Shown: positions 6,816-60,787 of the stretch, piece by piece | How positions within the stretch are numbered: the first letter of the stretch is position 1 | Layout: each line of letters starts with the position of its first letter | Origin: Sipunculus nudus | Taxonomy: Eukaryota; Annelida; Sipuncula; Golfingiida; Sipunculidae | Assembly: GCA_026874595.1 (NCBI GenBank) | Contig: CM049311.1 | Location: forward strand, 70,226,453 to 70,290,452 | Direction of reading: 5' to 3' | DNA: 64,000 nt | Translations under genes and position numbers: made by a program | The notes under the pieces: model-generated | Databases searched by the model: none | What the model was told of the DNA's origin: nothing | What the model saw: only the letters and a program-made list of their open reading frames with translations

Positions 6816-6935
6816 TTGCCCAGGGCCTGGCTGGGGACAGTCTGTAGACCGGCTGTTCCAGCACCATTGGGCTGTCCATTGGAACTTCCCTGGGACTTGC
6901 AGGATGAGGGCTCTCTCCCGGGCTTCTCAGTACTC
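6816..6935 (-). CDS. CEP97: Probable CEP97 exon 11, Pro/Ser-rich
   Basis: A 120-nt segment between acceptor TGATTGCAG and donor GCAA|GTAAGT. Entering in phase 1, which is what every donor in exon 10 would supply, it reads [20 protein letters not shown] then [20 protein letters not shown] and leaves in phase 1. Its Pro/Ser-rich, S-P-dense composition matches exon 10. A second frame is also open (beginning [11 protein letters not shown]) but would not match the phase. No similarity to vertebrate CEP97 can be claimed in this fast-evolving region, so assignment rests on splice sites, phase, strand and composition. Confidence 0.65.
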
Positions 6936-18600: not shown

Positions 18601-21600
18601 GATGGATAGAGCTTTTTTCATCAGCAGCCTGAGCTTGATAAATTATGAATATAACTTAACATGTCCAGATACATTAAATTATTAAACAAAAGTGGACTTT
18701 TGCATGCTGCAATAAGACCACAGGCATGAAACTGTTGTATAAAGAGAAAATGCAGTAATTGTGAAAGACATTATTGAATTTTAACTATAATCAGAAAGCA
18801 ACAGTCTGAAATAGTTAACAAATTATTTATCTCAGCAAAGAGACAGGTCAAATCAGCAGGTACTTTAAATTTAGAAGTAAACATTTCAATCAACAGACTT
18901 TGGTCATACATCTGAGTTATATATTAATTAAATAAAAACTTTTACATTTTTTCTTTTATAAGTTCTAAGTTCTTACTGGTCATACTGAAGGCTTTCAGTT
19001 TGAAAAAGATCATGTCTAACCTGTGTGTATGTGTATTTAGGGGTGAAAGAACAGTAATCATAAACCTGAAAAAATGCACCACTGGATTATGTTTACCCAA
19101 CTTGATTACATTTAAAACAAAGGAACAGTATCCATTGAAAGAAAGTGAATTGTAGCGGAAGAATATGTGCTAAATTACCCAGAAATTAACTGATATAATT
19201 TTGGTCCAATTTATCGTTGGTTGTAAGGGGAGGGGGCATAGGGGTCCTTTTTCACATTTACTCTTAAGTGAAAAAGAGATAAAGAAACTGACCGAAAAAG
19301 AGAGATAGACAGATTGAGAGATAGGTGACCAATGAAATACTAATCATTTAAAAAACTGAAAGCAGCACATTCATAACTAGAATACAGGTAGTCCACAAAC
19401 AACTGTGTGTATCCGCCAAAATCAGAGTAGAGCAGGTGAAGTGAGGCATGGATTGAGTGGCAAGGGGAAGCTGAGTAAGATGTGTTATATTAGCATGGAA
19501 ATCTGCCATGTAAACATGACTGTAGGTGGCGCCACCTGTTATTTGAATGAGAAACTAGCCAAGATGTATACACATGCAAAATATCAGGTGGAAAAGTAAA
19601 ACCTCTGCCGAGATACGAGTGATTTTATCCCACATCAGACAAACAGATACACGCTGTGCAAAAATGGTTGCAGGTGGCGCCACAAGTTTTGTGTATGAAA
19701 GAGCTATGTGAGATCCAAACACACGCAAAACTTCAGGAAGATATGTCAAACCAGTCCGGAGATATTAGCATGGATATCTACAGTATAAACTGACTGTAGG
19801 TGGCGCAATCTGTCATAAAATCAAGAAAGCTGTCAAGGATGTATACGCATGCCAAATTTCAGGTGAACACGTCAAAACACTGCTGAGATTGAGTGATTTT
19901 AACCCAAGTCAAATGAACAGATGGATGCTGTTAAAAAATGGTTGCAGGTGGCGCCACCAGTTTCTTGTATGATAAAGAGCTATGTGAGTTGTAAACACAT
20001 GCAAATTTCCAGGAAGATACGTCTTGAAAACAAGTCCAGAGATATAAGTATGGATGTCTGCAGCTTGAACGTAAATGTAGGAGGCGCCACCTGTCATAAA
20101 AGCAAGAAAGCTATCCAGAATGTATACGCATGCCAAATTTCAAGTGAATTAGTCCAACCACTGCAGAGATGAATGGTTTTAACCCAAGGCAGACAAACAG
20201 ATAGACACTGCAAAAATGGTTGCAGGTGGCACCACCATTTTTGTGTATGTTATAAAGCTATCCAAGGGCTTCATTTGTACAAAATAGTTTTCCTGATTGG
20301 TCAAAAGAGTCTGAAGATATGTGGGTTAATGTGTCAAAACAGACGCACAGAAGGACGCACTGGAGAGACGAAAGGTCAGAGGTCAACACCGAATGGTTAG
20401 GCACCAGTTCACATGTGACCCGATAATTGGTGTAAGTTTCGGAAAAATTGGTCCAGTAGTCTCAGAGGAGTTCTCGGTAAACGAATATAGCGTCTGCGGA
20501 ACCAGGTCAAAAACAAAGTATCTGCGAAACTTTGTTTTGGCCGATACAATTATATTTCTAAGTTTTTTCCACACTAGTTGGCCAGACACCCACAGATAGA
20601 GTTATCAAATATTCATTCAGTCACTGCATAAAAGGTACAAGTTATGCCACATTGTTGGTGATATATATAGTGTTATGTACAAGAAAAATACTTTTAGGAC
20701 TCATAAATAGTTGAAAGAACATTTAAATTTACGTGAACTAGGATCCTGTAACTATAATTTTAAAATTTGTGATGATGACCTCACCAGGCTAATACTAATT
20801 GTATGTAACACATGAAACACATGGTGCATACTACCATGGTCTAATCATGCCATTTACAACCTGTAGGTAACCCAAGGATGTATGTATTTGATAAAAAAGT
20901 CATATAGGTTGACCTCAAAATTGCAAATGTCATGGGTATTAATGCATATCTCTCCCACAATAAACAAATGTATACACAGAGTTTACAGCTAATAACTGGT
21001 CCCCTGACACTAGTTGGCCACACACACACAGATAGTGTTATCAAATATTCATTCAGTCAATGCATAATAGGTACAAGTTATGCCACATTGTTGGCAAAAT
21101 TTATGGTCTTATGTACAAGTGGTAAAAACTGAGATAATCACAAACCAAACACCCAACAGTAATCAGAGAGCAAATACCTCATCCAATGCCACATCATTAT
21201 CAGGCTCCTATTCCTGCTGAATTTATTAAACTAATAACTCCTTTCTTTTTCACCAGGTTTAAGGCTGATCCTGGAGACTGGTTATTAGTACAGTACATAC
21301 CTGGGCCTGGGATAGGTGTTCTGGGAGATGTGACTGATGACTGTGACTGGAGGGTAGATCCTGGAGACTGGTTATTAGTTAAGTACATACATGGGCCTGG
21401 GATAGGTGTTCTGGAAGGAGTGACTGATGACTGTGACTGGAGGGTAGATCCTGGAGACTGGTTATTAGTACAGTACAAACCTGGGCCTGGGATAGGTGTA
21501 TCTCCCTGGTTATTAGTACAGTACAAACCTGGGCCTGGGATAGGTGTTCTGGGAGATGTGGCTGGTGAACAAGACTGGAAGGTAGATCCTGGAGACTGGT

Positions 21601-24600
21601 TATTAGTACAGTACATACCTGGGCCTGGGATAGGTGTTCTGGGAGATGTGACTGGTGACTGGAGGGTAGATCGAGGAGACTGGTGGGACTCAGTTATACT
21701 CTGCTGTATACTCTGCTGATCTTCCAGCTGTAGGCGATGGACTCTCTGCTGCTGTAGGATCCGAGACAAATGAGCATCTTCTTGAGATACCTGAGAATAC
21801 AGCAACAAGATACAGCACTAATAAGATGACTGAACAAAGATTAACACATTCATGACTATTAGACTCTATACGTTTCAACTGTTTTTATCAAATCATTGAC
21901 ATCTCTGCCTGGACTAATGATGACAGAAGGCTACATTGTAAAGCAAAACTTCATAAAGCTCTCATTCTAAAGCTTGGTTCTCTGAGACAATTCCATTTCC
22001 ACTATTTTGGTACTGATCAAAAAAGATACATGAAAGGGTGAAATGTACAATTTAATTTCCCTCTACAGAAATACAACTGAATCTGTTAACATACACTATA
22101 AAATTAATTCAAACAGGAAATACAAGCACAGCCACTGTGAAAATAACTGAACAAAATTTTATTTGAACATGGTTACATCACCCCTACAAATAATAGCTGG
22201 GAGACACCAAATTTACATTACAGGAAGAAATATATGCCCCTTCACAAAATTGAAAAATATGATATAAGTTAGACAAAATTGAGATATCTGTAAGTTACTT
22301 TTTTCAATGTGTAAACAAGTAATAAAATTCAATACTAAGACATGCTTCACCCCCTTCCCTGTCAACTGTATTGATAGATAATAAAACTTTGGGTACCTCC
22401 CCATCTCCTGCAGGTGGACACACCCCGGCCAGGTACTGGACCAGCTGGACGTGCTGACCAGGACGGAACATCCTGCCCTTTCCCTGACTGTACAACCACT
22501 CTGCTTTCAAACTGTGAAACAATCAAAATGTGGAACATCAAATTTTAGTGTAGGTTTTTACAGAGTGACCTCGCCAAGAAATACAGTAAAATATAGCTTT
22601 ACAAGGGCCTAGAGACACAAATAGTCAACCGCCATATGTTTTCCCAGGAAAGTGTTGCATCATTGATACCAAAATTTTCTGAAACCTTGACAAAAGCCCT
22701 TTTTTAAAGAACAAGGGACCCATGGGTCAAGGCCCTCAGCTGAAGTTTGAAATTTTTTCAAATGCAAAATATGCAAAATATTCTTTTGTAATGATTTTCA
22801 TATATATAAGCATATGAGAAGCTAAGAAGACAGGGGCCCTTTTACTTGGTTTTGGTAAAGTTCTAAATATATGATTGCAAAACTAATACCCTGACAAGAC
22901 TGTCAAGAAGAAAAACAGTAAAAGTTTTGAGATCCTTTGATGCATATGAAAAATTTACAGATGGACAGGCAAGTGGACAGAAGGGACTAATACATTTATT
23001 TCACTTTCAAGGGAAAAATGCATTTAAGTTTATATTAAAGCCTATTTTTTTAGCATGTTCTTTTTTTCCATTAATAGTTTTATCAGATCCATTTTTCTTT
23101 ATTTTCAAGTTTTATAAATTTGTAACAGAAAAAAATCTGAAAATATAAGATAAAATATCGGAATTCTAAGTAACAATCATTATTTGTCTAGCGTGTACCT
23201 CATATCGATTATATAATGCATACACATATATTTTATTATTTTTAAATCTTAAACTGAATTTAAAAGAAAATAATGCTATAACATGGCATCTTCAAGATTA
23301 TTCCTTGAATCACTATTAAAAAGTTATGCACTTTGGAGTTTTCAGTACATGCTTAATTTATTCGCCTAAATAAAAGAATCAGTAAATTTGATAAAATAAA
23401 AACATCTTTTTCAAATAAAGTATACACACTGTTGGTTGTATGAGGGACAAACAAAATCATTGTGGTAATAACTATCTCAGCTATAATTTATTACTTGAAT
23501 TAATTGTCAATTTCACACCTGGTGAAGTTTATATCCTTCTGAAGTAAGGAATTACTTATCTGATGAACATCCACACTGTCATATAGCAATAAACCACTTT
23601 GTGAACACAATTAAATGTGCACTTTAATCATTGTTACCCTGGTGGTACAACACAAAATCTGAAATGTAGCACCTCCTAGATAAGAATGAATCAAATACAG
23701 AAAATTATAACATTCATCTAGTTTATGCACCAGCTAGTGGGGGGGGGGGGGGGGGGGGTGGAGTGCAGGCAGAGGGGAAGTCTGCTAGTAGTGGCCAAGC
23801 TGAGCCAAGGCAAGCTGCCTGGATGTGCCGTTGACAAAGTTGGACAAAATTTAAGGTATTGATTTTTTTTATTTCTGCTAATAACTTGAAAAATTTGCAA
23901 AGTTCAGATCTAATTTTGAGTAAACAATTGAATCTTGATTAAATAAAGTTATATACCTGAAAAAAGGTCTCTAGCTTCAGCAATTCTCATGTTAAGTGAG
24001 CAAATATATTACCTGATTTTTTAAAAATTGCATTATATTTGGGCCCATAACAAAAAAAATATGCAATACTGACCTACATTTTGGTATATTCATAGAAAAT
24101 GTATGGAAGCATATGAATACAAAATATGATCAAAAACAGATCAATGGTTTTGATATTAGGCAGCCTTGGAGTGTAACAATGGCATTTTTATGGAAAACTG
24201 AGGATTTTCCTTAATATCTTGATGGAATGAAGTTCTAGTGACCATATTTTTGGTAAGGAAGGGGATTTTGGGGACATTATCTGTATGCAAAATTTTGGAT
24301 TTGTAGGTCCAAAGTTTTCAAAACATGCCTTTTTAACAGAAGGCTGGATGGATGACGGACAAAGGACTACAACTATAGCTCAGATGACATAGTCAACTGA
24401 GTTAAATGAACCTTGCAAAATACAAAAAGAAACTTGATTTAAAAAAAAAGAAAATGCATGATTAGCTTTTTAGTTATCCAGAGCACTATGTTTTAACTGG
24501 GGGGATAGGGATTTAATTTGTAAACTTTTACCAATAGATATCTGTCATGGCCAAGACATATGGCTGTAATATTATATTCAGATAGTAGTTAAAAAGAGGT

Positions 24601-31800: not shown

Positions 31801-34800
31801 CCTGATAGAAGCCGCAGCTGTTTTTCAGACACCTGGCAACCTGGTGGCGGCATAAGGCATTCTCAGAGTACACAGCTAATGAGCTCAACTCCCAAAGTGT
31901 CAACCAATCATAGACATGTATGTGTGTGCTGAGTGAAACATTTTACCTGTAGGTTCCTGAGGTGTGAGATATCTGACAGAGATGAGATGTTATTGTCAGA
32001 AAGATCCAGATACTGTAGGGCAGCATTGTTGTTCAGGTTGTCTATAACCTGCGAGTGAAAAGAAATATCATCACATTGTGAAGATAACTCTACTTAATGT
32101 GTTAATCATCATCTGAATCCCATGTTTCCATGACAACAGTTTTATAATGAGGATCCTTATAACCATACATGTCAGTTTTAAGATCCTAATATTATCACAA
32201 ACTGTATGGTTTCTATGATCCTTGTTGTGACTAAAACATATTTATTGTAATTGGAATCAAGATTTTCAAAACCATAAAGTCCAATAATTTCATGGTTAGT
32301 GTTTGCTGTTTTCATTCTTCATATTATGAAGACCAGTGTAAGATAGATATTGTGCATGTTAAATACAAGATCCTATACAAAATATCATAATACCTGAAAA
32401 TATCTTATTTAGCTCTGTATTTTTAAGATTAAACTTAAATGTTATTCTTACTAAGTTGTCATTGCATCTTAGTCAAATTGTCAAGATGGAAATACTTATA
32501 TTACTTAAAATGTTTTGAAATGAAAACAATGAGCAACATGTTTGACCTAACATATAGCAAGCCAAAAAAGAGAAGTTTTCTGACTGTAAACAGCAGGAGT
32601 TTTGAGTTTAAGAAGTTTAAGAAACTATCCTGAATAATAACAGTAAAGCTCTGTGCATGACACTACAGTGGGAACTGTCAGAAAGACCATCTATTTTATA
32701 AGACCACCTGTCTACTAAGAAAACGCTTGGTTGAACAAAAAGCATTCATACTGGTTATAACTGACCTGTCCCATAAGAACACTTTTGGCCAGTCCCATAG
32801 GTGGTCTCATGAAACAGGCTTCACTGTAATACAAACCTGATAAATGACTTAAAGCTATATCAACAAACGCTTGGGCATGTTTTTGAGTCTGCATAGTAGT
32901 ATTATATTTTATGAAGACAGGTAAATACTATGTACAACTAGCAAATCCAGCCTTTCTAATTAATATGAGCCCATCAACACAACCTGACAGCACCAGGGGA
33001 TGCATGACAACTACAATGGTCCTTATAGTCTTTCACAGGTTACAGACAGATCTATACATGCCAACCAGCTGGTCACCATAACATTAGGTGTGAGGGTCAG
33101 ACACAACAACCTCTTATGTTACTGGTTTATTGATCCAATAAACATGAAGGAAATAATCTCTGAAATAATGACTGAGTGGGTGTATATATAACCTAGACAT
33201 GGCTTCCCTTTGGCACTGCTTTGCACAAATCAGACAAGTAATTTATCATGATGCATGTAAAAAGCTTCCTGACAGGACACTATGCAGCTTTTTTTTTAAC
33301 ATATAATCTGATAACCAAGAGAAAAAGTATCTTGTATATTTTACAAGATAATTTTGCACATATGTTGCATAAATGAAGTTTCTCTGAAAATTCTACCATC
33401 AAACAAACAGTATAACTCAATTATCTCAACAAGTTTGTCATGATAAAAAAAATGTCAAAGTTTAATCTTATAAAAAATTAAATGTTACTTTTTGGGTAAA
33501 CGAGTCTGGCCTTTTAGACAGATAATTCATGTAATTTGTATTATTATGCAAAAAAAAAATCCAACAATATGGAATAACAAAAGTGTTAGGGGTAATGTGC
33601 ATGTTCCAACAGGCTGGACGGCATGGGTTTACAAGTCTTCATGTGGCATTCTAAAACTCTTCATGTGGCATATAACACACCTTTTGCTGCATGAATCCTA
33701 CTGTGTGTATACTACATCAGAGAGAGATGGTTACATTTTATCCTTAGCTTATATACAGAGGACAAACAAACTCAACCTTCTTCTTAACAAATGTAGCAGT
33801 CCAATGAACATTTTTCTGTCTTTGTGCAGCAGTCCAATCTACTTTATTCTTAATAAATGTAGAAGTCCAATTTTCCTTTTTGCTTAAATAATGTAGCAAT
33901 CCCATGAACATTTTTCTGTATTTGTGCAGCAGTCCAATCTACTTTATTCTTAATAAATGTAGAAGTCCAATTAACTTTTTCTTAACTAATACAGCAGTCC
34001 AATGAACATTTTTCTGTATTTGTGCAGCAGTCCAATTTACTTTATTCTTACTAAATGAAGAAGTCCAATTAACTATTTTCTTAACTAATGCAGCAGTCCA
34101 ATGAACATTTTCTTAACTAATGCAGCAGTCCAATGAACATTTTTTCTGTCTTGGTGTAGAAGTCCAATTTACTTTATTCTTACTGAATGAAGAAGTCCAA
34201 TTAACTATTTTCCTAACTAATGCAGCAGTCCAATGAACATTTTCTTAACTTATGCAGCAGCTTAATGAACATCTCAATCCATGAAGCAGTCCAATTATCA
34301 TTTTTCTTAAATCATGTTGGTATCAAAGGGTTTATAATAGAACTTATATAATCAATATTCTTGGCTTAATCATTAAATAGGATTCACAGTCAAAAATTAG
34401 AGGGGTCAATATGATGGAATAAATACTGAACATGCTGAAGCCGCATGGGGACTTACAAGACAGTCTGACCTACCTTAATACTGTTTCCTGAGAGATTGAG
34501 CCAAGTGAGCTTTGTTAGACTTCTCAATCCTGCAACAACAAAACCAGAAAATATCAAAATGATTCACAGTCCAGAACATGGTCACAACCACTATGATCCT
34601 ACATGACTTTATTTGTCAATGATCAGGTTTGCTTTGGTACAGAACATGTTTCCCTGGTGGTCAAGTGGTAAGATAGTTACTGACATCACCGAGCTGCTAC
34701 AGTGAACAGACCCAGTTTATATCTGAAAACAGCAGATTTTTGCCTTTCCAGACTTTATTCTAGCCCAAATTCTTAAACCAAACAGAGAGATTGAAGAGAA

Positions 34801-40800: not shown

Positions 40801-43800
40801 CCTTCAATAGTTAAAATACTGAGTTGGTGAATATTGTTCCCACTGTTCTATCTAAATCCATTATGGTCTTGTTAATAATTCACACATATTAGCTAATTTC
40901 AGCCTAATTTATGTTCACTAGATAGCAGATACACATTTTGCTATTTGCTAAATTTCAGTCACCTAATTGCAGTGACTTAAGTTCAGGTATCTTAACAGAT
41001 GTTTCAGGGCCTTCTTTCCTTAATAAAAATATGAAGTATGTTATAAGTTCTAGATCCAATGTTACAATATGTGCACATTTTTTAAGGGGTGACATGGGGG
41101 GGGGATCAATGACCAAAAGCCCCAACTTATGATAAAAAAACCTTAAATAACAAATAAAATTTTGAATTCACAAGTCAACACTGAGAAACATGTATATTAA
41201 TAATTATTTATTAATTTTGTTTAAGTTTGTTGAATTAATGTATATGTTCAGCAAGCTATATTTGTAGTTTTCAGCTGTAAAATACCAATGTTTAACATGA
41301 ATATTTTATTATTATATTTAAGACATTCACATAAGATGTAAAATTACAAAATTAATATGACAGGAGTCCAACCAATGATATTTTTATAGAATATGAAATA
41401 AATTCATAAAATATTAATTATTATGGACTTACAATGTTTTACAAATTGATTAAAGGCCAGCTGGGTAAATACAGTGTAAATGAACTTAGCCTAGGAGTAG
41501 ATTAGGATTCTGATCTAGGCTGGTCTAGTTTAAAATCAGTCCACCACAGGATTGTAAACTTGACCAGCTCACATAAAAATTCTAATCTTGGCTGGCCCAG
41601 TTTAAAATCAGGCCAGACTAGATTTAAATCCTGAAGTTTTCACCACAGGATTGTAATCTGGACCGGCCCAGATCAAAATTTTAATCTGGGCAGGCCCAGT
41701 TTAAAACTGGTCTGGCCCAGGTTAGAATTTTGATCTTGGCCGTTCCAAATCAAAATTTTGATCTGGGCTGGCCCAGTTTTAAATTGGGCCAGATTCTAAT
41801 CTGGGCCTCAACATGTACATAATGATATGCCTAATTTCAGGCTGATATATCAAATCCCTCCTGAGAAATAAGCAGGGACATACACTGTGCAAAAATTATT
41901 GTAGGTGGCCCCACCAGTCTTGTATACAACAAAGCTATCTGATATGTAAAAATATGTACATTTTCAGGCTGATATATTAAATCCCTCCTGAGAAATAAGC
42001 ATGTATTTACACTGAGCAAAAGTCATTGTAGAAGGCAACACCAACTTTGTATACCAGAAATCCATCAAATGCATGGACAAGTCAAAATGTCAGCAGTGTG
42101 CAAAATTAACGCCTGACCCCTGGAAATGGCAAGTAGTTTCTCAGGGGAACTGTAAATGTCATCCAGGCACCAGACCCCTTTTTTGGCATATATTTTTTTA
42201 CCAACAATGTTACTCTGACAAAAACAAGCGACTGTTTCCCACCAGAGGTCTGCTGACAGTTGTTACGTTACCCAAGTGACACCTAACGGAGAATACGCCT
42301 CCCTTTAGATTTCTTGCTCCGTAATATTTCCATATATGGAAATAATAGTGGTAAAATATGATGACGAAAAGTTGTTGCATACAGTGTCTTAGACTGTTAG
42401 CACACTCCCACTCCTCCAGGCCAATCATTTTTTTTTCTGCCTGAGACATGTAGATTAATAACAACTTGGAACAAACAATCATACGGGGTCAGTTGGTATT
42501 AGCCATATTGACACTAGAAAAATGTGGCACGCGCTAGACCAGTCCAGAAAAATGTGAAGCGGGCTACATTTTAACTTGCGTTCTTACTGTGCTGGACCAA
42601 GTGACAATGTAGAGCGCACTACCCTGTCAAGTTAGGCCCCATTGCACTTGGCCCAGCCTAGAATCTGCACTGCGTTTACAATCAGATAAATACTGCAACC
42701 TAGCGCTGTCTAGATTGGATTCCCCCTTGTGCGCATGGGTAAATCCCAGTCTCAGACCCCATCTGGCACACACTGTAGAACCAACTCAACTGGTGGTCAA
42801 ATGTAGCTCGCTCCAGACAGAAAATCCTTGGATCTGGCTCGTTTGGGGGACTTGGCGCACACTAAACGATGTAGAGCCCTCCAGGAAAACCTGGGTAAAT
42901 GGGGCCATTCTGTGGGGTCAAGCAATTTTTTTTGGGTGCCTGACCATGTTTCAGGTGGATAAAAAAATTAACTGTGCCCTGGTCAGGCCAATTCATCACA
43001 CTTCTCTTGGGTCAGTTGCAGAGGGCTGACCAAGCGCAAGAAAGGAAGGCAGTTGTCCCCAGTGAACTGGAACAAAATACTGGCTCCAGCTACTGCCCTG
43101 AGTAAACTCTTGACCTGCACCTGGGTGCACCTAGTGAACTCTTGACCTGCACCTGGGTGCACCTAGTGAACTCTTGACCTGTACCTGGGGGCACTGTGTG
43201 AACTCTTGACCAGTTGCATAATCTGACACAGTTGGCAGTCTACCAAAGCTATAAATATGTCAAAACTGACCTTTGGCTAGTTGCCAAATCTGAAATAGTT
43301 GTCAGTCTGCCAAGCTATTTATAGTGTTACAAAGACAAATTGCTCAGGGGAAAAATCTGGGCCGATCCGGGATTCGAACCCATGTGGGTGGTGCACAAGT
43401 CAGGCGTACCAACCGCTTCGCTAGAAAAGCAAGCATCACTAGCGAGACAGTTCAGTCCGCTTTTATGTCACCCCGTAACACACCCCCTCTTCTGCTATCA
43501 GAACAAGACTAATTATCCCAGGAGTCACACTTTGGTGAGCTTATACCCTGGGCCACAAAGTTTTCTGTCATCCCGGATGAGCCCCCATTTCGTTACAAAG
43601 ACAAATTGCTCAGGGGAAAACACTGGGCCGAAATGGGTGGCGCACAAGTCCGGCGTACCAACCGCTTCGCTAGAAAAGCAAGCTTCACTAGCGAGACAGT
43701 TCGGTCTGCTTTTATGTCATCCAGTAACACACCCCCTCTTAAGAGCGTTCTACTATCAGAACAAGACTAATTATCCCAGGAGTCACACTTTGGTGAGCTT

Positions 43801-46800
43801 ATTCCCTGGGCCACAAAGTTTACTGTCATCCCGGACGAGCCCCCATTTTGTTTCAAAGACAAATTGCTCAGGGGAAAAATCTGCGCCGATCTGGGATTCA
43901 AACCCATGTGGGTGGCGCACAAGTCCGGTGTACCAACCGCTTCACTAGCAAAGCAAGCTTCACTAGCAAGACAGTTCAGTCCGCTTTTATGTCACCCCGT
44001 AACAATAGATACAGACACAATCTTGGCCTGTTGGTAAATCTGTTTACACATACTGAAAGACTTTTGCTACAGTGCTTATTCTCAAGCTGACATATTCATA
44101 AGATTTTTTTTATCAAAATGTTTAGAATAATAAAGATGCAGTCCTTTCATTGTTAAAGGGCCAATAATTCTGCCCAAAAATCATTTAAGTAAACTTGAAC
44201 AAAGGTCTCATAAGGATCATTTTTGTGCAGTGTTACAAAAGTTGAAAACAGTTTTGCAGAAGAAGACTATTGTAGCCCTCAGTTTGAAATAGGCTTACTA
44301 ATGGCCACATGACTTACATGAGCTTTCTATTTCCATACCAAAAATCAAAGAACCCCATCTATTCTTATACAATTGAAAGAACCCTACCCTTGGATTATTC
44401 TTGTGAAAAATTAAATAATTCAGCTTGACAGTTTCATCATTTTTCATTTTTATACTGAAAGAGGTTAAAATTATGAGGTTTTTGCTCGTAAAAAAAACAG
44501 GTTGATGTAGGTGGTGCCACAATAACTGCAATTTCAAATACAATTCATGTGACCAACATTTGAACAAAACCTGGTGATGCTAGCTCCAGTTGTTTTGTAG
44601 ATTGTTATGTTAGTATGTTTACTTGGCCAAATTACGTAATTTAAATTCCTGTAACTCAGTAAAAATTCATCAAACCAAAACCATTTGAACAAACTTGAGT
44701 GTCTCTTGGATCATTTTTTTGTGATATATTGAACAATTTGGCTGAATGATTTCAGAGAAGAAGATTTTCAAAGGTTTTTTAGCTTTTCCCTCTGTTAATG
44801 TAAGTTAATGTAGATGACACCACAAAGATCTAAATCCCAAAACATTTGATATTTGACAGGTTTTGGATAAAATTTGGGAATGCTAACCTCCACTATTCCT
44901 GAGATAATGTACTGATGACCCTTGTACAAAAAAGGTTAACCTAGGTGACGCCACCAATACCTCAAATTCATATACAAGTCATGTGACCAACATTTGCATA
45001 AAATTTGATAATGATAGCTCCAGCCGTTCCTGATATTGTAATTTTAGTAATAAGTATCCTTTTTTTACCAAATGACTAAGTTCAGCTTCCTGTATCTCAC
45101 CAAACCTGAACCATTTGAACCAACCTGCGAGAGCTTGTTTAAGATATTATTTCTGTGAAATATTGAACGATTCGGCTGGACAATTTCAGAGAAGAAGATT
45201 TTAAAAGGTTTTTTTAGCTTTTCCCTATAAAATCTAAGTAAACGCAGATATAAAAAAAATAAGAAAATCCAATAGTTTTTTAGGCGACTGATTTTTTGCA
45301 TAATATTTGATGATGCTAGCTCCTGCTGTTTTGAGATAGTATGGGTTCACGTATGGAGGATGGTATGACAGATGTAGAAGATGCTACACCATCACATAGG
45401 CTCACAGGTTCTCTAAGTACATTGGCAGGAAAATCAAAGTCGTCTCATACATCTCATACTCATACGTCTCATATGAGCAAGTGGATTCAACATTAACCTT
45501 TACCTTTATAATCTTTTACGTTGATCGAAATTCCCCAAATGTTTGTCCATTGTAAACAGGATTTATTTCAACTGACTTCAAATCCTGTTTTTTTTTAACT
45601 CTGTCACCTGAGAGCACCAATACAATGAATCTTCATGAATATTCATTTGCATTCAGCCAATGGTGCCCTAATGACCTCCAATGATTCTCATTTACTTTAA
45701 TAAATATACTTACACTACTTTTCTCAGCACTAAAAGTTAAGACACTTTGTGAAGGAGAATGATTTTGTCAGGCATATGAAAATACTGATGTATGGCAAGA
45801 AAAAGCTAGATGCTTCTTGCCTAACCTGGCAAGTACTTGGCAACTGTTGAGCCCCATGTTAATAGATATACTGTCCCCAGCATGTTTTTTTTCACACTCA
45901 GCACACAAAACTTGATTTTACATAATTATGTTTGTGGGTCATTTTTTTGGAAGCCAAATTAGCAACAGCAATTTTTCTTTTCATAATGACCAATAAGTAA
46001 AATCTCAATAAATTTATATTAGAGGTCATGAACTCTGATACTGAGTCAATCCAAGAAATATATTAGAAAAACAATTAGCTGCAATATGCTGTTCATTATT
46101 TTATGGGGGAGAATGTTACACAGATTAGTGTATATTTAGGCTTAAACTTGACCTGATATCAAATAGTATTTAAAGTTGATACACTTTGGCCATGTCATTC
46201 AGACCCCACCCTCCCCCCCCCCCCACACACACACACAAATATAAAAAAAAAATAATTATAAAGTATACTTCATATTTTTTTTTTATCTGAAAATTCAGAG
46301 AGCAAAAATGTAAATAAAAGTGTAAACAAGGTCCACAGTGTTTTCTTAACATATACACTGAAAACATACAGCTGTGTCTCATAACACACAGAACTCCCCC
46401 TTCATGTAACTGTACCTAATTTATTATCATGTACATGTATATAATCTCAGCTTTCTTCCTCATAAAGGTTATACCGATCTCACAGAGTGATCAAAGCAAA
46501 ATTTCTTTGAAGTGGGTACTCTTTTAAGGTTGATAGTTGTAAACTATGTACAGTGCTGTCCTATGTTATTATGCACCCGTCTTCTTTGTTGAATGTTCAC
46601 ACCAAAGCACCAAATCTTATTTTCCATATTGCACACATTGTAACCGTTATTTTTTATGAATAACTGTATAAATACTGCACATGTATTGCTCACACCAGCA
46701 TAATTCGATGGACTGCAAGTGCCACAGGGTGTGTTGCAATAAGGTGACTTAAGTCATGTAGGTGACTTAAGCCCAGGGGCATCTGTGTGTCACCATGGTA

Positions 46801-56300: not shown

Positions 56301-59300
56301 AATTATGCAGCAAGGCCAGCATATTTCAATTCAACAACGAAGTACTAAATCCATACACTTGTAACAGTAATATCATGTCAATTTGTCAAGTCCGAAATTA
56401 AAAATAAAAATTGCTTTTCAAGTGTAACAGACAGTGATAATTATATAAGCTTTTCTTGAGGATGCTGAACAGTTTGGCAAAATGAAAGCAAATACTCATA
56501 AAATCCATGCCAGTAGTAAATGCCACTTTTTGTTGGCAAATACTGGCAAACTGAATTTTATCACACCAGGTTAATGTACGGACAATGCCACACCATCGCA
56601 AAAGCTCATGCAAGTTGACTAAAAATAGCTAACAAGGTTGTGATTGTGACAAAGTGTATGTTTTACACTTTCATTAGCTTAAAAGTACTGTACCTATGTA
56701 ACAGCCTACCCACATCAATCAGTTCCACATATATGTATACAAATTAATATCATGACATTAATTCATTGAAATCCTTCAAATATCTACTGTGGGGGAAAAA
56801 GAAGACACTAATCCATTTAAATGATGATCATAGTTCATCATGAAGAGGGGTTACTGTGTATAACATCTCCAGGGGCCGTTAGAAAATATAAAAACTCACA
56901 TTGATCAATGGATCCAATGTGCCTGTCAATTGTGAGGAGTCTTTAAATCAAATCACTTAATAGAATCTAAATTTTCTTTTGGTTTGCGATATTGAGCATT
57001 TAGCCAGGACAAGCCTTCCAGTTTGACTGTATGGCCAGAAAAACTAAATGGGCAGTGGGTAAACCAGGACCCCACAGAATCCAGATCCCAGACCCCAAGC
57101 AAAATCTGTAATTCTGAAACTCTCATGGTAATTTGTCCAAATATTTTAGCGGAAACATATCTTAAGAAATATTTTATATTATGTTTGGTTAAAAACATAA
57201 ACAATTAGTCTGTTTTGCAACAAAATTTCACAATTAACACTTATAGACCCTGATGTACGGACCTCACGGATTACACTGACCCCTTTTACTTGTTTACCAT
57301 TTCTTTAAACATATTTTCACATCACATTTGGCCATAGCACCTATGTGATTGATTATTTTATTTTGTTTTTATCTGTATTTTTACATTTTTGTCTCAGTTT
57401 TAAATCATAATTTTATAATTGCTATTTATTTTATTTGTGTGTCGTTTTAAAAAGTATAATAATTAAAAACATTTACAAAATCATTATTTTTCAAACTGTT
57501 TTTGCTTGAAATGCAAGTACTCAACTATTCCTTTTGGTAATTATATTACTGCCAACTTAAAATAGCATGATTGTTATAAATGGAACACAAAACCTGTTGT
57601 TATTTGGAAGAGCTCTGATATATGTCTAAGGTCCCAACAACAGGTAGTGCACTTCAAATAAATCTCCCCCAGTGTGCCAGCGCTATCACACTTTCATTTA
57701 AATTAATAAATAATTATATTTAATGTGTGACATGAGTGCTGATTTTTTTTCCTCTGAGTCAAAAATGAAAATATGAGTAACCAGTGGTTACTGGGGTCCG
57801 TCAAAATGGAACAATCATCAAAGTCAAGTAAATGAGGTCCGTCTTCATCGAAATATTTTTGTAAACTAAAATATTTTAGTGAATCAGTCATTTACAAAGT
57901 TGCAACATTTCGGAACTTTGCTCTGTTCTTACATCAGCAATTTTTTTATTGGTATAAATAATGGAAAATGAGGAAATTGGTTTTTGGGGTCCGGGGTCTG
58001 TGGGGTCCTGGTTTTACACACTGCCAATCGAATCTATCATTTTCATGCTAGACGCACATGTGCCCGAGGGGGGGGGGGCATGACCCGTCAGCATCCAGTT
58101 CTGGACTTTTTAAATATATATATATTTATATATAATTATAGATTGCAGTTAAGCCAACCAAAGAGTTGAACATGACTCATGAGTTATGACAGGCACTTCA
58201 ACACAGGATTTATATTCATATTACATATGACATAATATATTGCTAAGACTTCATCTGTGTGGCAAGTCATGTCACGTGATATGTCGCTGCATCCCTGTAT
58301 CTTGTTATTGACCAGGGCTGGGGTCAAATACAGTGTGCCAAATACAGGTATAAATATGATAGCTGGTCCCCTCCATATACAAATAAGAGTGACTGAAGAT
58401 AAATACAAATACAAATACAGAACATCAAATACAAATACAACTAGACATTTCTTGGCACCGCTGGTGCCATAGTATCGCCAGACAAATGAGGTTTTGTCGT
58501 CCAAAGGTCAAGACCACTCTCAAAGGAAAATGATCAAATTGTGACTCTGTGGTACACCCAGTGCACTAATTCATTTATCACTGACCATCATATCTATTTA
58601 TAGAATCTGACCATGGCCCAGAACTGCTGATGTTTGGGCAAAACATGATGCAACACCATGTGCAGACCACTAGCTGAAGCAATCCCCCAGGTTCACTGGA
58701 TATTTTCATGATTGTTGGTGATTTTTACCATATATGGCAATATTTAAAGTCAAGTCCACTCTCATATGCAAGGTCAGGACCCAAATTTAAATATATCTCA
58801 TCCCATAATCCAAATCAATGTATATGCATAATATAAAAGAAATCTGTCCATTAGTTTTTGACTTATAATGCTTACAGTGCTGTCAAGTGGCCCTTTTTAA
58901 GATATTCATGATTTTATGTTTTTCACCAAATATGGGAATATTCAAGGTCAAGGTCACTCTCATAGTCACAGTCATGACCCCAAATCAATAAACTACATTC
59001 CAAAATATTCAACATTTGAAAAAAAAAATTAAATTAAAAAAAAATAATTTAAATTAAATTAAATTTTAAAATTAAATTTAAAATTAAATATACCTCATTC
59101 CATAAACCATATCTATATACATGCATAACATGAAAGAAATCTGTCCATTACTGTTTGACTTATAATGCTCACAGTATATACTGTCAAGTGGCAATGATGG
59201 GGTATTCAAAGGCGCAAAAAACAAGAAAAGGACAACAGGTGGCGCCACCTATCTTCTGCAAAAGACAAAACTATCCAAGATCTTCCGTCAACTTGATTTT

Positions 59301-60787
59301 TGGACCAATCCATGCATCCCTTTTTAAGATATTCATGATTTTATGTGATTTTCACCATATATGGTAATATTCAAGGTCAAAGCCACTCTCAAAGGAAAGG
59401 TCATGACCCTAATTTTAATATACATCATCCCATAACCCATACCTATGTACATGCATAATATTAAAGAAATCTGTCAATCAGTTTTTGACTTGTGATGCTA
59501 AAAGTACTGTCAAGTGGCAATGATGGGGGTATTAAACGGCACAAAAACAAGAAAAGGATACTAGGTGGCACCACCAGTTTCCAGTACATGACATCACTAT
59601 CCAAGATCTTTGTCCAACTTGATTTTTGGATAATTCCATGAAAGATTTCTTGAGATATTTAAGAATTTGTGTGATTTTCCCAAAATATGGATCTATTCAA
59701 GGTCAAGGTCACTCTCCTAGTTGAGGTCATGACCCCATTTTAGATAGGCTTCGTCCTCTCACCTATATCTATAAATGTGTCAAGTTTGAAAAAGATCCTT
59801 GAAATATTTTTTGAGTTATTGTGTCCAAAAGAAATCTCTGCGGCGGCGGCGGCGGCGGCGCAACCGTGCCTAAACCATAGACTGGCATAGTATCTCCAGA
59901 CTATGTCTGGCGATACAATTACAAATAGGCAAATGTATTGGTAATACAGATAATTTATTAATTTTCAGCAGCATATATTATAATGTCTCAGGGAGAAGTG
60001 AAACACTTGACTTGGTGCTCTCTTTGGTTGTTCTGAAGTTAGGTAGTAGTTAATTTTAAATTATGGCAGATATGAATATGTATTAATATAAATGTATTTG
60101 TACAGTATTTTGATCAAATACATCAAACATTGAGATCAAATACAAATATTGAAATATTACCATTTTACACAAAAAATACATACTTTGTCTGTATTTAAAT
60201 ATAAAATTATAATATAAATACAAATACGTATTCGACCCAACCCTGTTATTGACATGCAAATAATACTGTTGTAATTCTCACTAATATTCTATATTAATTA
60301 AATAATGTTAATAAATTAATGTGTAATATCAATTATTATATTATTACCCTAATTATCAGATTATGGCCTTAAATTAATTATGCCAAATCATTTGGCATTA
60401 GAAAAATTAATATGAATATATTATACTGATAAGTGTCATTGTCTGCGTCTTTGTGCAATCTCCATATTTGCCAAACTTAACTGTAATGTGAACGATCTAT
60501 CAGTGTTTCACATTGTTTCTGGCCTGTTTACCTGACCACTGACAGCTCCCAGATAACAGTGTCACAGTTGTTGACAAAGTGACGAGTCTCCAGAAAGAGA
60601 GACGAAACCAACTTTAACCTTCAGATAGACATTGATATATATCCTGGCAGGAGCCGATGTTTAGTAACACCAACCTATTTACCTCTCGACTGTCTCTCTA
60701 ACAATTACACTGAGTTTACAATTTAAATTTAATTATTTAAAATGTATCGGAACGCTAAACATGTTCGAACTCACCCGCAGCCGCCAT
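6816..60787 (-). CDS. CEP97: CEP97 orthologue (centrosomal protein of 97 kDa), split gene, 3' end not found
   Basis: Gene-level entry. CEP97 binds CP110 at the distal end of the centriole, caps it and holds back cilium assembly; in vertebrates it has N-terminal leucine-rich repeats, an LRR C-terminal cap and a later IQ (calmodulin) motif. Seen here: eleven minus-strand exons with GT-AG borders. Coding lengths of exons 1-9 are 13, 146, 103, 56, 102, 114, 80, 84 and 115 nt, which add to exactly 271 codons with no stop. LRRs occupy about residues 32-190 and the cap about 190-232. The segment [12 protein letters not shown] followed by RPGQH and QLVQYLA is nearly identical to vertebrate CEP97. Exon 10 adds a Pro/Ser repeat and exon 11 a Pro-rich segment, bringing the assigned protein to about 474 residues. 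The IQ and coiled-coil regions are missing and probably lie left of the window. Introns run from 369 bp to 21.7 kb. Identity is strong; gene structure after exon 9 is less certain. Confidence 0.94.
7305..8581 (+). mobile_element. pogo/Tigger-like DNA transposon remnant with TA target duplication
   Basis: The left end is TA-CAGTGAAAACTGGTCTAA and the right end, reversed, is TA-CAGTGAAACCTGTCTAA. This gives CAG...CTG terminal inverted repeats flanked by TA, as in pogo/Tigger elements of the Tc1/mariner superfamily. Subterminal matches continue (ACCTCACTA.T near both ends). The interior has a short transposase N-terminus remnant (8172-8339). The element is about 1.28 kb, well short of an autonomous element, so it is internally deleted. 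Confidence 0.7.
8172..8339 (+). pseudogene. Transposase N-terminus remnant (CENP-B/pogo HTH-like)
   Basis: A 55-codon frame begins [20 protein letters not shown] and continues [20 protein letters not shown] before decaying. L(S/T)..EKIKLI...EK..KS.RE is the opening helix pattern of pogo/Tigger-type CENP-B helix-turn-helix domains, which agrees with the CAG/CTG, TA-flanked element it lies in. The rest of the helix-turn-helix and the DDE domain are absent. Assignment is by pattern, not by search. Confidence 0.5.
9490..9561. repeat. (TG)n-(TA)n microsatellite
   Basis: A TG-rich run passes directly into about 25 TA units. Confidence 0.95.
9612..9642. repeat. (TC)n microsatellite
   Basis: About 15 TC units, 50 bp after the TA array. 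Confidence 0.95.
16960..17870. mobile_element. GGTGGCGCCACC tandem element, copy 1
   Basis: It opens with CTAGAATACGGGTAGTCGAC and has a GTATCC.CCAAAA end facing TTTTGGCGGATAC near 17867, a short inverted repeat. The interior is a degenerate tandem array of about 140-bp units, each with the palindromic core GGTGGCGCCACC or a variant (near 17113, 17385 and 17533). The 3' part, about 17640-17870, is unique to the family. No coding capacity. The whole element is repeated at 19375-20552. Confidence 0.65.
18314..18507. mobile_element. Short MITE with TACAGTGAAATCT ends
   Basis: TACAGTGAAATCTTGC faces GCGAGATTTCACTGTA across 194 bp. The tips are TA-CAGTGAAA, like the pogo-like element at 7305-8581, so it is probably a non-autonomous relative. 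Confidence 0.7.
19375..20552. mobile_element. GGTGGCGCCACC tandem element, copy 2
   Basis: It matches copy 1 from the CTAGAATACAGGTAGTCCAC start to the TTTTGGCCGATAC end. GTATCCGCCAAAA near 19411 is the facing inverted end. GGTGGCGCCACC or variants occur near 19524, 19672, 19797, 19945, 20079 and 20222, at 125-150 bp spacing with alternating flanks, so the array is built from dimers of about 280 bp. Short open frames across it are by-products of the repeat. Confidence 0.7.
20569..20690 (+). repeat. Direct repeat, left copy
   Basis: About 110 bp (CACTAGTTGGCCAGACAC through ATGTACAAG) recur at 21005-21120 with few differences. The left copy sits immediately beside the tandem element ending near 20552. 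Confidence 0.8.
21005..21120 (+). repeat. Direct repeat, right copy
   Basis: Second copy of the repeat at 20569-20690, about 435 bp away, same orientation. Confidence 0.8.
21220..21690 (-). repeat. 90-bp coding tandem repeat inside CEP97 exon 10
   Basis: The unit is 90 bp, with one 48-bp unit. Shared landmarks are spaced 90, 90, 48 and 90 bp. Every unit carries (C)CAG|GTATGT or GTTTGT followed within 20 bp by TACTAATAACC. In one unit the base before GT is T and the later motif is AACTAATAACC. The repeat continues a little past the assumed exon end, so the array spans an exon-intron border. Confidence 0.9.
21301..21790 (-). CDS. CEP97: CEP97 exon 10 with tandem 30-residue Pro/Ser repeat
   Basis: The acceptor is GTATTCTCAG. 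The first 26 residues, [20 protein letters not shown] then QLEDQQ, align with the vertebrate segment 'AEDAKLEKIL.KQR.H..QL'. A tandem repeat follows, with unit [20 protein letters not shown] plus [10 protein letters not shown] (30 residues, 90 nt); one unit is cut to 16 residues. The end given uses the last repeat donor CCAG|GTATGT, and four earlier in-phase donors exist at 21390, 21480, 21528 and 21618. If unspliced, the frame stays open to a stop at 21200-21202. The repeat looks disordered and is rich in S/T-P sites. Which donor is used cannot be told from sequence. Confidence 0.85.
21791..22396 (-). other. CEP97 intron 9
   Basis: A 606-bp AT-rich intron. No element recognised. Confidence 0.85.
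22397..22511 (-). CDS. CEP97: CEP97 exon 9, helix after the LRR cap
   Basis: The acceptor is GTTTCACAG and the donor is GAG|GTACCC. It encodes [20 protein letters not shown] followed by [19 protein letters not shown], to residue 271. [30 protein letters not shown] is almost unchanged from vertebrate CEP97. The donor is weaker than average but keeps phase 0 into exon 10. Confidence 0.95.
22709..24406. mobile_element. GCTCAGCTGA-type element, copy 1 (CEP97 intron 8)
   Basis: It begins ACAAGGGACCCATGGGTCA with CTCAGCTGAAG close by, and ends in AGTCAACTGAGTTAAA. Copy 2 (35035-36943) has the same start and ends in AGTCAGCTGAGCTAAA, so the termini are short inverted repeats around GCTCAGCTGA. The last 600 bp or so (GACAAAGTTGGACAAAATT onward) are clearly homologous between copies. 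A 20-G run is at 23739-23758. No coding capacity is seen. Confidence 0.65.
25565..25648 (-). CDS. CEP97: CEP97 exon 8, LRR C-terminal cap
   Basis: The acceptor is CTGTATACAG and the donor is GAAAG|GTAAGC. It encodes [20 protein letters not shown] followed by QLITEKE. The motif [14 protein letters not shown] is highly conserved in CEP97 and forms the cap of the LRR domain. It begins and ends in phase 2, consistent with both neighbours. Confidence 0.95.
25784..25861. repeat. (TA)n microsatellite with interruptions
   Basis: About 78 bp of near-pure TA in CEP97 intron 7. Confidence 0.95.
26084..27192 (+). mobile_element. pogo/Tigger-like DNA transposon remnant in CEP97 intron 7
   Basis: The left tip TA-CAGTCATGACTTGACATTCC and the right tip read on the other strand, TA-CAGTCGTGACTTGATAATCC, form CAG...CTG inverted repeats with TA flanks. 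Ends of the type CAGT..ACTT/CGA.AATCCGA are typical of pogo/Tigger elements. The interior has a decayed transposase C-terminal segment on the plus strand. The right tip is 33 bp from the donor of CEP97 exon 7. Confidence 0.72.
26518..26887 (+). pseudogene. Degenerate pogo/Tigger-type transposase C-terminal segment
   Basis: An open stretch reads [20 protein letters not shown] then [20 protein letters not shown] and [20 protein letters not shown], ending after 90 codons. The core '..KQSTI.HC.....ILP' resembles the 'V...TI.NCWR..GIL' segment near the C-terminus of Tigger/jerky DDE transposases, which fits the surrounding inverted repeats. An in-frame TGA lies just upstream, and a second frame stays open to about 26887, suggesting a frameshift. 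There is no ATG start and no DDE core. Identification is by pattern only. Confidence 0.45.
27226..27305 (-). CDS. CEP97: CEP97 exon 7, last LRR and start of LRR cap
   Basis: The acceptor is TTTGTTGCAG and the donor is AATCT|GTATCC. It encodes [20 protein letters not shown] then VSASSN (residues 179-204 plus two bases). The donor is not a strong consensus. It was chosen because it alone restores the frame into exon 8, giving SNLALDYRPF where vertebrates have a short linker before DYRP. A pogo-type transposon ends only 33 bp downstream of this donor. Confidence 0.9.
28224..30990. mobile_element. Composite element with GCGAACCTGTG ends, copy A (CEP97 intron 6)
   Basis: It starts AACAAGGCCTACAGG..GCGAACCTGTG and ends CACAGGTTCGCT, so the termini are inverted. 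Modules in order: a GGTGGCGCCACC block (28399-29050), a 'GAGTGAACTCTTGACCTG' minisatellite (about 29090-29235), a TATAAATAG-containing part with CTGCCAAAGC repeats (to about 29520), an AT-rich middle, then a block of 'cttcccataac..agccaaaa' units (30100-30900) and a GACGCAC run (30925-30964). The same order recurs at 39284-45418. No coding capacity. Confidence 0.65.
30925..30964 (+). repeat. GACGCAC simple repeat
   Basis: Short ACGACGCACGAC-type tandem near the right end of composite element copy A. Confidence 0.85.
31070..31183 (-). CDS. CEP97: CEP97 exon 6, LRR
   Basis: Exactly 38 codons between acceptor TTTATTTCAG and donor GAG|GTATGG, residues 141-178. It encodes [20 protein letters not shown], then [42 protein letters not shown] is a hallmark stretch of CEP97 and the strongest single identity anchor in the window. 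Confidence 0.97.
31947..32048 (-). CDS. CEP97: CEP97 exon 5, LRR
   Basis: Exactly 34 codons (phase 0 to 0) between acceptor CACTCGCAG and donor CAG|GTAAAA. It encodes [20 protein letters not shown] followed by [14 protein letters not shown], residues 107-140. The core [13 protein letters not shown]...L..L is shared with vertebrate CEP97. Confidence 0.95.
32664..32828. mobile_element. Short MITE with TACAGTG ends (CEP97 intron 4)
   Basis: TACAGTGGGAACTGTC faces ACAGGCTTCACTGTA across 165 bp with TA at both tips. It belongs with the CAGTGAAA elements at 7305-8581 and 18314-18507. Confidence 0.65.
33772..34310 (+). repeat. Minisatellite with CAGCAGTCCAAT units (CEP97 intron 4)
   Basis: About 15 imperfect units of roughly 33-36 bp centred on GCAGCAGTCCAATGAACATT or GTAGAAGTCCAATTAACT. 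They are arranged as higher-order triplets near 105 bp, most visible between 33880 and 34200. One open frame across the left part is a repeat artefact. Confidence 0.85.
34474..34529 (-). CDS. CEP97: CEP97 exon 4, LRR
   Basis: A short exon of 56 nt with acceptor TTGTTGCAG and donor AAG|GTAGGT. It encodes [19 protein letters not shown], which corresponds to the vertebrate GLKELVHLEWLNLAGN segment. It begins in phase 1 and ends in phase 0. Confidence 0.94.
34648..34740 (+). mobile_element. Possible tRNA-derived SINE fragment
   Basis: TCCCTGGTGGTCAAGTGGTAA resembles a tRNA A-box region, but no clear B box follows. Weak. Confidence 0.25.
35035..36943. mobile_element. GCTCAGCTGA-type element, copy 2 (CEP97 intron 3)
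   Basis: Same family and orientation as 22709-24406, with GTGCTCAGCTGAAG near the left end and GTCAGCTGAGCTAAA at the right. It carries a 21-G run (36030-36050) at the corresponding place and a short ACGGACGG run near 36856-36893. No coding capacity. Confidence 0.68.
37400..37720 (+). other. Unrecognised GC-richer stretch with a 94-codon open frame
   Basis: The open frame (37408-37692) does not begin in a convincing ATG context and has no flanking splice sites. It contains GGTGGCGCTACC near 37610, a variant of the palindromic core found in several elements of this window, so it is more likely part of a repeat than a gene. Confidence 0.35.
38275..38360 (-). mobile_element. tRNA-derived SINE fragment (CEP97 intron 2 side of exon 3)
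   Basis: Read on the minus strand, GGGGTAGGATGTAGCCTAGT followed by GGTCAAGGTGTTGGAC looks like a tRNA A-box region, and a decayed B box (GGTCC.TGTCCAAACCCC) follows. A second copy is at 49748-49840. It lies about 65 bp past the exon 3 donor, inside intron 3. Confidence 0.55.
38425..38527 (-). CDS. CEP97: CEP97 exon 3, LRR
   Basis: The acceptor is GATTTCAG and the donor is GAAG|GTAGGT. It encodes residues 54-87 plus one base: [20 protein letters not shown], then the next LRR start [14 protein letters not shown]. The pattern LxxLxLxxN is clear, and the order matches vertebrate CEP97, where NNRLVRM and LNLPHNSI occupy the same place. The intron on its 5' side is only 369 bp, the shortest in the gene. 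Confidence 0.94.
38897..39042 (-). CDS. CEP97: CEP97 exon 2, start of the LRR domain
   Basis: The acceptor is TTTTATAG and the donor is CAT|GTAAGT. It encodes residues 5-53, including [18 protein letters not shown], then [18 protein letters not shown]. This aligns with the vertebrate CEP97 opening (short Gly/Ser stretch, N/D-Y/W-SG-GL, then the first LRR with 'K.E.LE.CK.L'). It starts in phase 1 and ends in phase 0. Confidence 0.93.
39778..41812. mobile_element. Foldback-type DNA element with long composite inverted repeats
   Basis: The left arm (about 39778-40115) and right arm (about 41470-41812) are inverted copies, each made of repeated palindromic units such as GGCCCAGATCAAAATTTTGA with CTGGGCC. 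The outer tips are AGGCCCAGATTAGAATCTGG on both ends. ATGT flanks both sides (39774-39777 and 41813-41816), a likely target duplication. Removing the element rejoins the interrupted GGTGGCGCCACC-type repeat. The middle, 40120-41460, is AT-rich with no coding capacity. Confidence 0.8.
43325..44004 (-). mobile_element. Three tRNA-derived SINE units separated by two near-identical spacers
   Basis: The three cores (43325-43471, 43592-about 43730, 43850-44004) start GTTACAAAGACAAATTGC and end CCCGTAAC. Read on the minus strand, each contains a tRNA-like A box (TAGCGAAGCGGTTGGTACGC) and B box (GGGTTCGAATCCC). About 120-bp spacers (ACACCCCCTCTT... to ...CCCCATTT) lie between cores. It is inserted in composite element copy B, with ATAG on both sides. 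Open frames through the array are artefacts. Confidence 0.75.
46742..46771. repeat. Direct repeat AGGTGACTTAAG beside the X-box cluster
   Basis: AGGTGACTTAAG occurs twice, at 46742-46753 and 46760-46771, with a 6-bp spacer, about 20 bp before the X-box cluster. Direct repeats of this kind often mark binding sites. The factor is unknown. Confidence 0.45.
46789..46834. promoter_or_regulatory. X-box / CRE / X-box cluster in CEP97 intron 1
   Basis: GTCACCATGGTAAC (46789-46802) fits the RFX X-box pattern GTNRCC-N2-RGYAAC on both half-sites. TGACGTCA (46808-46815), a perfect palindromic cAMP response element, follows after five bases. GTAACCATGGTATC (46821-46834) is a second X-box with one mismatch. 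RFX factors control centriole and cilium genes, and CEP97 is such a gene. The cluster lies about 14 kb downstream of the start codon, so it would act as an intronic enhancer or alternative promoter rather than a core promoter element. Confidence 0.45.
49748..49840 (-). mobile_element. tRNA-derived SINE fragment, second copy
   Basis: On the minus strand GGGGTAGAATGTCACCTTAT then GGTTAAGGTTTTGGACTT parallels the fragment at 38275-38360, with similar downstream CCCCACCAGT. Confidence 0.5.
51618..53098. mobile_element. DNA element with CCGTAGATCCGCRTTTTGC terminal inverted repeats
   Basis: TA-CCGTAGATCCGCGTTTTGC at the left faces GCAAAATGCGGATCTACGG-TA at the right, one mismatch in 19 bp. The interior contains an internal tandem duplication (about 51980-52230 and 52258-52500, each with TTCAATGGGACATCAAAG and TGCTGATCATAATATAT). 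No transposase is visible, so it is non-autonomous. The TA at both tips would fit a TA target. Confidence 0.75.
53308..53365. repeat. (TA)n microsatellite
   Basis: About 57 bp of TA with one interruption. Confidence 0.95.
55240..55770 (+). repeat. TGACCTTGACC-rich tandem repeat
   Basis: At least three imperfect units of about 150-190 bp share GTGACCTTGACCT, TTGGGA.GA.AACTTAGCTTAA and GGTGCTCCCCTATT. TGACCT half-sites occur as direct repeats, for example near 55560-55575. Confidence 0.7.
57050..58028. mobile_element. Inverted-repeat element with ACCAGGACCCCACAGA ends
   Basis: About 50 bp at the left (GGCAGTGGGTAAACCAGGAC then CCCACAGA) recur inverted at the right (TGGGGTCCTGGTTTTACACA then CTGCCAA). 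Extra GGTCCGT and CGGACCT motifs occur inside. No coding capacity. Confidence 0.6.
58441..59920. mobile_element. AGGTCAAGGTCA tandem element with GTATCGCCAGAC ends
   Basis: AGTATCGCCAGACA near 58471 faces TGTCTGGCGATAC near 59908. Five imperfect units carry CAAGGTCAAGGTCACTCTC and GTCATGACCC (near 58505, 58750, 58940, 59370 and 59695). GGTGGCGCCACC variants lie near 59240 and 59563. A (GCG)n run (59841-59860) is close to the right end. It is inserted into a TACAAA-rich simple repeat. No coding capacity. Confidence 0.65.
59841..59860. repeat. (CGG)n run
   Basis: About six to seven CGG units in an otherwise AT-rich region. Confidence 0.95.
60775..60787 (-). CDS. CEP97: CEP97 exon 1, coding part (MAAA + 1 nt)
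   Basis: Four codons plus one base, followed by the donor GTGAGT. The phase-1 end joins exon 2 to give MAAAGEGG, which matches the short N-terminal lead of vertebrate CEP97 before its GEGS segment. The ATG lies inside AAAATGGCGGC, which is both a good translation-start context and a YY1-type motif. A strong donor so soon after the ATG and exact phase closure support this start, although the intron it implies is 21.7 kb. Confidence 0.82.

Follow-up and report, generated by a model that had tools for sequence, protein, structure and literature searches.

Which of several nearly identical 5' splice sites, lying one behind the other at the end of an exon, is used by the spliceosome? The question is raised by a tandem array in a 64,000-nucleotide stretch of the Sipunculus nudus genome (contig CM049311.1, positions 70,226,453 to 70,290,452, hereafter the window), where five donor-like sites follow each other at the end of exon 10 of a minus-strand gene. 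The gene is called CEP97-like here, a candidate label which we adopt from a preliminary description of the locus and from the likeness to the human protein. The reading that we favour, with a probability of about 0.52, is a minisatellite straddling the exon 10/intron 10 border, with the site at 21618 as the default donor and the one at 21300 as the one serious alternative.

Structure of the tandem array

The array and its donor-like sites are as follows (scores and percentiles refer to a set of 73 donors described below):

21257 to 21682, minus strand: tandem array with a 90-bp period; CAG-to-CAG units of 84, 90, 48, 90 and 90 bases and a 24-base end segment
21613 to 21618, minus strand: donor U1, CAG/GTATGT, phase 1, score 4.45, 37th percentile of 73
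21523 to 21528, minus strand: donor-like site U2, CAG/GTTTGT, phase 1, score 0.10, below all 73
21475 to 21480, minus strand: donor-like site U3, CAG/GTTTGT, phase 1, score 0.10 (below all 73), within the 48-bp unit
21385 to 21390, minus strand: donor-like site U4, CAT/GTATGT, phase 1, score -1.51, below all 73
21295 to 21300, minus strand: donor U5, CAG/GTATGT, phase 1, score 4.45; exon 10 would be 490 nt

The preliminary description had placed donor-like sites at 21618, 21528, 21480, 21390 and 21300, and all of them were found on the minus strand, at spacings of 90, 48, 90 and 90 from 21618 to 21300. Their common phase 1 was likewise confirmed, each site leaving one codon base when the frame is taken from the inferred exon-10 acceptor at 21790. 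The claim of 90-bp units stood for the three of five that measure exactly 90 bp and not for the others, of 84 and 48 bp; the terminal segment of 24 bases (QSPGSALN) is about two thirds repeat. One array unit, searched as DNA against the 1.43-Gb assembly, gave 5 matches, all inside the array, a result that does not prove the array unique, as the search skips very common words.

The GC (guanine plus cytosine) content is 0.563 in the exon-side parts of the units (302 nt) vs. 0.290 in the parts from donor to unit end (100 nt); for comparison, the part of exon 10 ahead of the array has 0.481, exon 11 has 0.608 and the sequence past the array 0.349. Since the step recurs in every unit, each of them resembles an exon tail that leads through a donor into an AT-rich intron head. 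Judged by its sequence, the array is a single exon-intron border duplicated in tandem, rather than five independent donors. The five sites share phase 1 because each unit holds a whole number of codons; being copies of one donor, with a period and a deletion that are multiples of three, they agree in phase by what is roughly one event, and the five shared phases were therefore ruled out as independent evidence. The sequence ACTAATAAC, which is near the consensus branch-point sequence, is present in all five units about 11 bases past the donor (21607-21599 in the first unit).

The sequence of events that we propose would comprise: (i) tandem duplication of an SP-rich exon tail together with the 5' splice site and the AT-rich head of the intron (about 20 bases), by which the native donor would have been placed at five positions; (ii) default choice by the spliceosome of the most upstream strong copy, presumably 21618, so that exon 10 would measure 172 nt and intron 10 would start with the remainder of the array; and (iii) possible use of the last copy, 21300, which has the same nine donor bases as 21618 and would lengthen the protein by 106 residues without a frameshift. 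The three copies in between, weakened by substitutions, would be minor or silent. The site at 21618 is taken as the default because of the precedent of human F7, considered below, and of the 172-nt exon that it would give.

Host gene and exon chain

The exons around the array, with a possible read-through extension of exon 10, are the following:

22397 to 22511, minus strand: CEP97-like exon 9, ending in phase 0; weak donor GAG/GTACCC at 22396, score 0.82
21619 to 21790, minus strand: short form of exon 10 with U1 as its donor, 172 nt; acceptor TTCTCAG/GTATC at 21790, phase 0
21200 to 21299, minus strand: read-through after U5, the same frame being open to a TGA at 21202-21200; AATAAA at 21227-21222
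6816 to 6935, minus strand: exon 11, 120 nt, phase 1 in and out; acceptor ATTGCAG/GA, donor CAA/GTAAGT

Upstream of the array, the minus strand of the window carries exons encoding leucine-rich repeats (LRR), and three of the exons ahead of exon 9, translated and joined into one peptide, matched Pfam LRR_9 at 7.3e-11. For downstream exons the sequence was read 20 kb past the window, where three further exons were inferred on the same strand after exon 11: exon 12 (111 nt), exon 13 (822 nt) and exon 14 (154 nt), the last containing an IQ motif (Pfam, 1.4e-06). The other three of the five host-gene peptides tried gave no Pfam family. Strand, order and phase suggest that the exons from the LRR part to the IQ exon form one transcript, and the gene so assembled has the N-terminal leucine-rich repeats and the downstream IQ motif of a CEP97-type protein. 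CEP97 is not named among the best 60 of 235 solved-structure sequences that match the leucine-rich part at 0.01, those shown being generic LRR proteins. A retrocopy or paralog revealing the spliced form was sought as well and none was seen, all six protein matches lying within the host gene (25 candidates scored, in a search whose misses do not prove absence).

Exons 11 to 14 each start in phase 1, and the first three of them end in it as well; intron 10 must therefore begin at a phase-1 donor, and in the full gene other exons follow exon 10. Besides the array sites, the sole phase-1 GT scoring above -4 within 21790-21200 is AGA/GTATAC at 21711 (score -2.41). The exon-10 donor is thus very probably located inside the array. 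The next exon named in the preliminary description, 6935-6816, was borne out as a probable partner: it opens with GA/GTA and so takes phase 1, and it is the only phase-1-in/phase-1-out candidate in the approximately 31.5 kb between the array and exon 12 that reaches its own splice-site scores, which served as the thresholds of this count.

The expectation that any of the five donors could be chosen without a frameshift also held, as all five are in phase 1 and all downstream exons found take that phase. The further claim, that donor choice would give proteins with one to five repeats, was not supported: at the junction of U4 (21390) with 6935, T and GA form an in-frame TGA, which truncates the four-repeat form. 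Among the assembled versions, the one using 21390 has 1 stop and those using the other four donors have 0. With exon 11 the repeat series breaks at four, and at most four full protein forms, with 1, 2, 3 or 5 repeats, would be possible. When exon 11 is skipped and exon 12 is joined directly, 0 stops arise for all five donors.

Strength of the donor sites

The weight matrix used for scoring was calibrated on 73 donors of EGF exons of the same genome, many of them from a few EGF genes. They were retained from 89 candidate exons, of which 16 were dropped: 7 scored low on a generic matrix, and 9 had a frame longer than 300 nt or no GT in range. This filter trims the weak end of the distribution, so that "below all 73" is somewhat too strict. 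By the matrix, two of the five array sites lie inside the range of the 73 donors. With 54 distinct 9-mers as the reference the order was unchanged, the percentiles being 0.61 for GTATGT after CAG, 0.02 for CAG/GTTTGT and 0.00 for CAT/GTATGT. The nine other donors inferred for the host gene score from 0.82 to 6.56. On the minus strand of the window, 29 of 3907 GTs score at least as high as 21618, two array sites included, and 320 of them reach the score of the GTTTGT sites.

Alternative readings of the array

Several results weigh against a default donor at 21618 with three minor or silent copies behind it. Counted as matches to the consensus CAG/GTAAGT, the five sites reach 8, 7, 7, 7 and 8 of 9, all within the range of the 73 donors; they match or beat most of that set, in which 43 donors match at 5 or 6 positions. 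A likely real donor of the host gene, CAT/GTAAGT after the exon end at 38897, has T at position -1, so this base alone need not kill a site, and the middle three sites would appear weak rather than dead. Classical duplicated-donor constructs often favour the intron-proximal copy, which here would favour 21300. Moreover, the exon frame stays open through the entire array, whose length differences of 6 and 42, like the period of 90, are multiples of three, and among 1982 overlapping 318-nt stretches taken from intron 10 none is open in the frame tried; the open frame and in-frame lengths are as would be expected of a fully coding array. This argument for coding is softened by the redundancy of the copies: the probability that copies of one open unit remain open under random substitution is 0.37, and the unit is open in a second sense frame too. 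The locus was, besides, chosen because it is in phase. Changes between units fall 10, 5 and 7 times on codon positions 1, 2 and 3 (8, 3 and 5 when two codons of the 48-bp unit whose alignment is uncertain are left out), with no third-position excess. With those two codons excluded, the pairwise codon differences comprise 9 synonymous and 35 non-synonymous ones, where a synonymous share of 0.263 is expected under neutrality, and non-synonymous exceed synonymous differences in 9 of the 10 unit pairs. The absence of a third-position excess fits an array that is mostly unconstrained as protein.

The main rival reading, which we consider unlikely, is that 21300 is the constitutive donor, the array being an ordinary coding repeat of 30 disordered residues and the earlier donors decoys. 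The open frame with indels in multiples of three speaks for it, as do the strength of 21300, equal to that of 21618, the weakening of the middle three sites that is expected of decoys within an exon, and the occurrence of long exons in the host gene (exon 13, 822 nt). It is opposed by the lack of a third-position excess, by the intron-like AT-rich heads inside every unit, by the intact full-strength donor that a 490-nt exon would keep at 172 nt, and by the F7 precedent as reviewed (PMC6627357). The preliminary description had instead envisaged a regulated or stochastic choice among five donors. Five GT sites in one phase, none causing a frameshift to exon 11, and consensus counts of 7 or 8 of 9, within range for all five, are consistent with such a choice, which is nonetheless quite improbable in view of the TGA at the junction of 21390 with exon 11 and of three sites scoring below all 73 calibration donors. 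A modified form of it, to which we give no better chance, is an in-frame ladder of splice sites: 21618 and 21300 (weakly also 21528 and 21480) would compete for the distant acceptor and set 1, 2, 3 or 5 repeats, and 21390 would act as a built-in nonsense exit. If this were true, the repeat number and the level of a centriole-cap protein would vary with allele length and splicing factors, without frameshift.

Intron gain inside the array, with the donor of one unit joined to the acceptor of a later one as in the AGGT tandem-duplication model, would create a small new exon ending at 21300; introns from 21618 to 21450 (168 nt) or to 21360 (258 nt), for instance, would both keep the frame. The units are bounded by CAG/GT (CAT/GT at U4) and each contains ACTAATAAC; a phase-1 acceptor-like TCTCCAG/GATC occurs four times, with exon starts at 21588, 21450, 21360 and 21270. 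In addition, two fission-yeast genes are described as having gained introns in arrays of 24-nt coding repeats (PMC3629103, PMC4974935), although for one of the two an expressed sequence tag removes more than the annotated intron and the authors want further study (PMC4974935, PMC3629103). Nevertheless, the phase-1 acceptors rank no higher than the 11th percentile of 73, the best acceptor, at 21410 (38th percentile), breaks the frame, and the AG/GT sites score -5.15 or -4.69 as acceptors. One-unit introns would measure at most 90 nt, vs. 111 bp for the smallest gap between neighbouring EGF matches in a by-eye comparison of one gene of the same genome (C8, approximately 24.24-24.26 Mb). Splicing inside the array is thus possible but weakly indicated, and intron gain there seems very improbable. 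Scarcely probable at all is a terminal exon in which all five donors are ignored and the transcript ends after the stop at 21202-21200 with the AATAAA at 21227-21222 as its signal, so that the protein would be short and lack the IQ part: the frame is open to 21203 and the hexamer is nearby, but AATAAA is common by chance in AT-rich DNA and here precedes the stop codon, and further exons, including that with the IQ motif, lie downstream. The AATAAA itself, about 20 bases ahead of the read-through stop (21227-21200), may mark an intronic polyadenylation form or be a chance occurrence.

Natural tandem copies of a donor such as these provide a clean test of spliceosome choice among nearly identical 5' splice sites, and the array would illustrate how a minisatellite can turn an intron head into protein sequence. 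If only one copy is used, it would be an ordinary repeat at a splice border.

Other repeats in the window and genome

Genome-wide, AGGTATGT repeated three times at 58-88 bp was found 848 times forward and 4771 times in reverse (reversed control 842 and 409), and GTAAGT repeated in the same way 483 and 453 times (control 213 and 416), counted irrespective of coding, in a range that leaves out the array's own 90-bp period and with overlapping satellite copies making up most among the matches listed. The high counts say only that such repeats are common in the genome, and the idea that they are special there was not upheld. The strand bias of the AGGTATGT pattern (4771 vs. 848) perhaps reflects a few large satellites.

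The window contains three further repeats detected with TRF:

33774 to 34310: 33-bp tandem array within a host-gene intron, approximately 16 diverged copies
43326 to 44004: 258-bp repeat, approximately 2.6 copies
59087 to 59742: 326-bp tandem duplication, 78% matches

Comparison with known systems

Coding minisatellites and exons with a variable number of tandem repeats (VNTR), such as that of MUC1, normally have units without a strong donor in each, and their variation comes from allele length, not from splicing. The present array is like MUC1-type VNTR exons in having in-frame tandem units in a low-complexity region. No report of a coding repeat in which every unit is an alternative donor was found in the open-access literature with narrow search terms.

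The AGGT model of intron gain by tandem duplication has been described for SPOG_01682 and SOCG_00815 of fission yeast (24-nt repeats) and for the RdRp gene of potato (PMC4974935, PMC3629103). In the potato gene, the splice signals and the GC difference between intron and exon are described as inherited from the parent border (PMC4974935, PMC3629103). The S. nudus array likewise consists of tandem copies of an AG/GT-bearing segment; however, in the AGGT cases the copies supply both ends of the new intron, whereas here the acceptor-like sites are weak and an acceptor of the right phase lies 14 kb downstream.

The closest precedent, by analogy, appears to be intron 7 of human F7, where 37-bp repeats, variable in number, contain a 5' splice site apiece and the authentic donor is in the first (PMC6627357). 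According to the review, oriented scanning leads to the use of the most upstream donor alone (PMC6627357). In both genes the donor is multiplied by a minisatellite that lies at an exon-intron border, and in S. nudus, too, the array begins in the exon with a donor in each unit, three of the five copies being weakened. In contrast to F7 as described, the present units also carry an exon tail. A minisatellite that copies a 5' splice site is thus already known; what would be new here is that the units keep the frame. Because 37 is not divisible by three, a downstream copy in F7 breaks the frame, whereas the S. nudus units of 84, 90 and 48 bp preserve it, except for the stop at U4, so that the gene could tolerate the use of a downstream copy, which might become coding.

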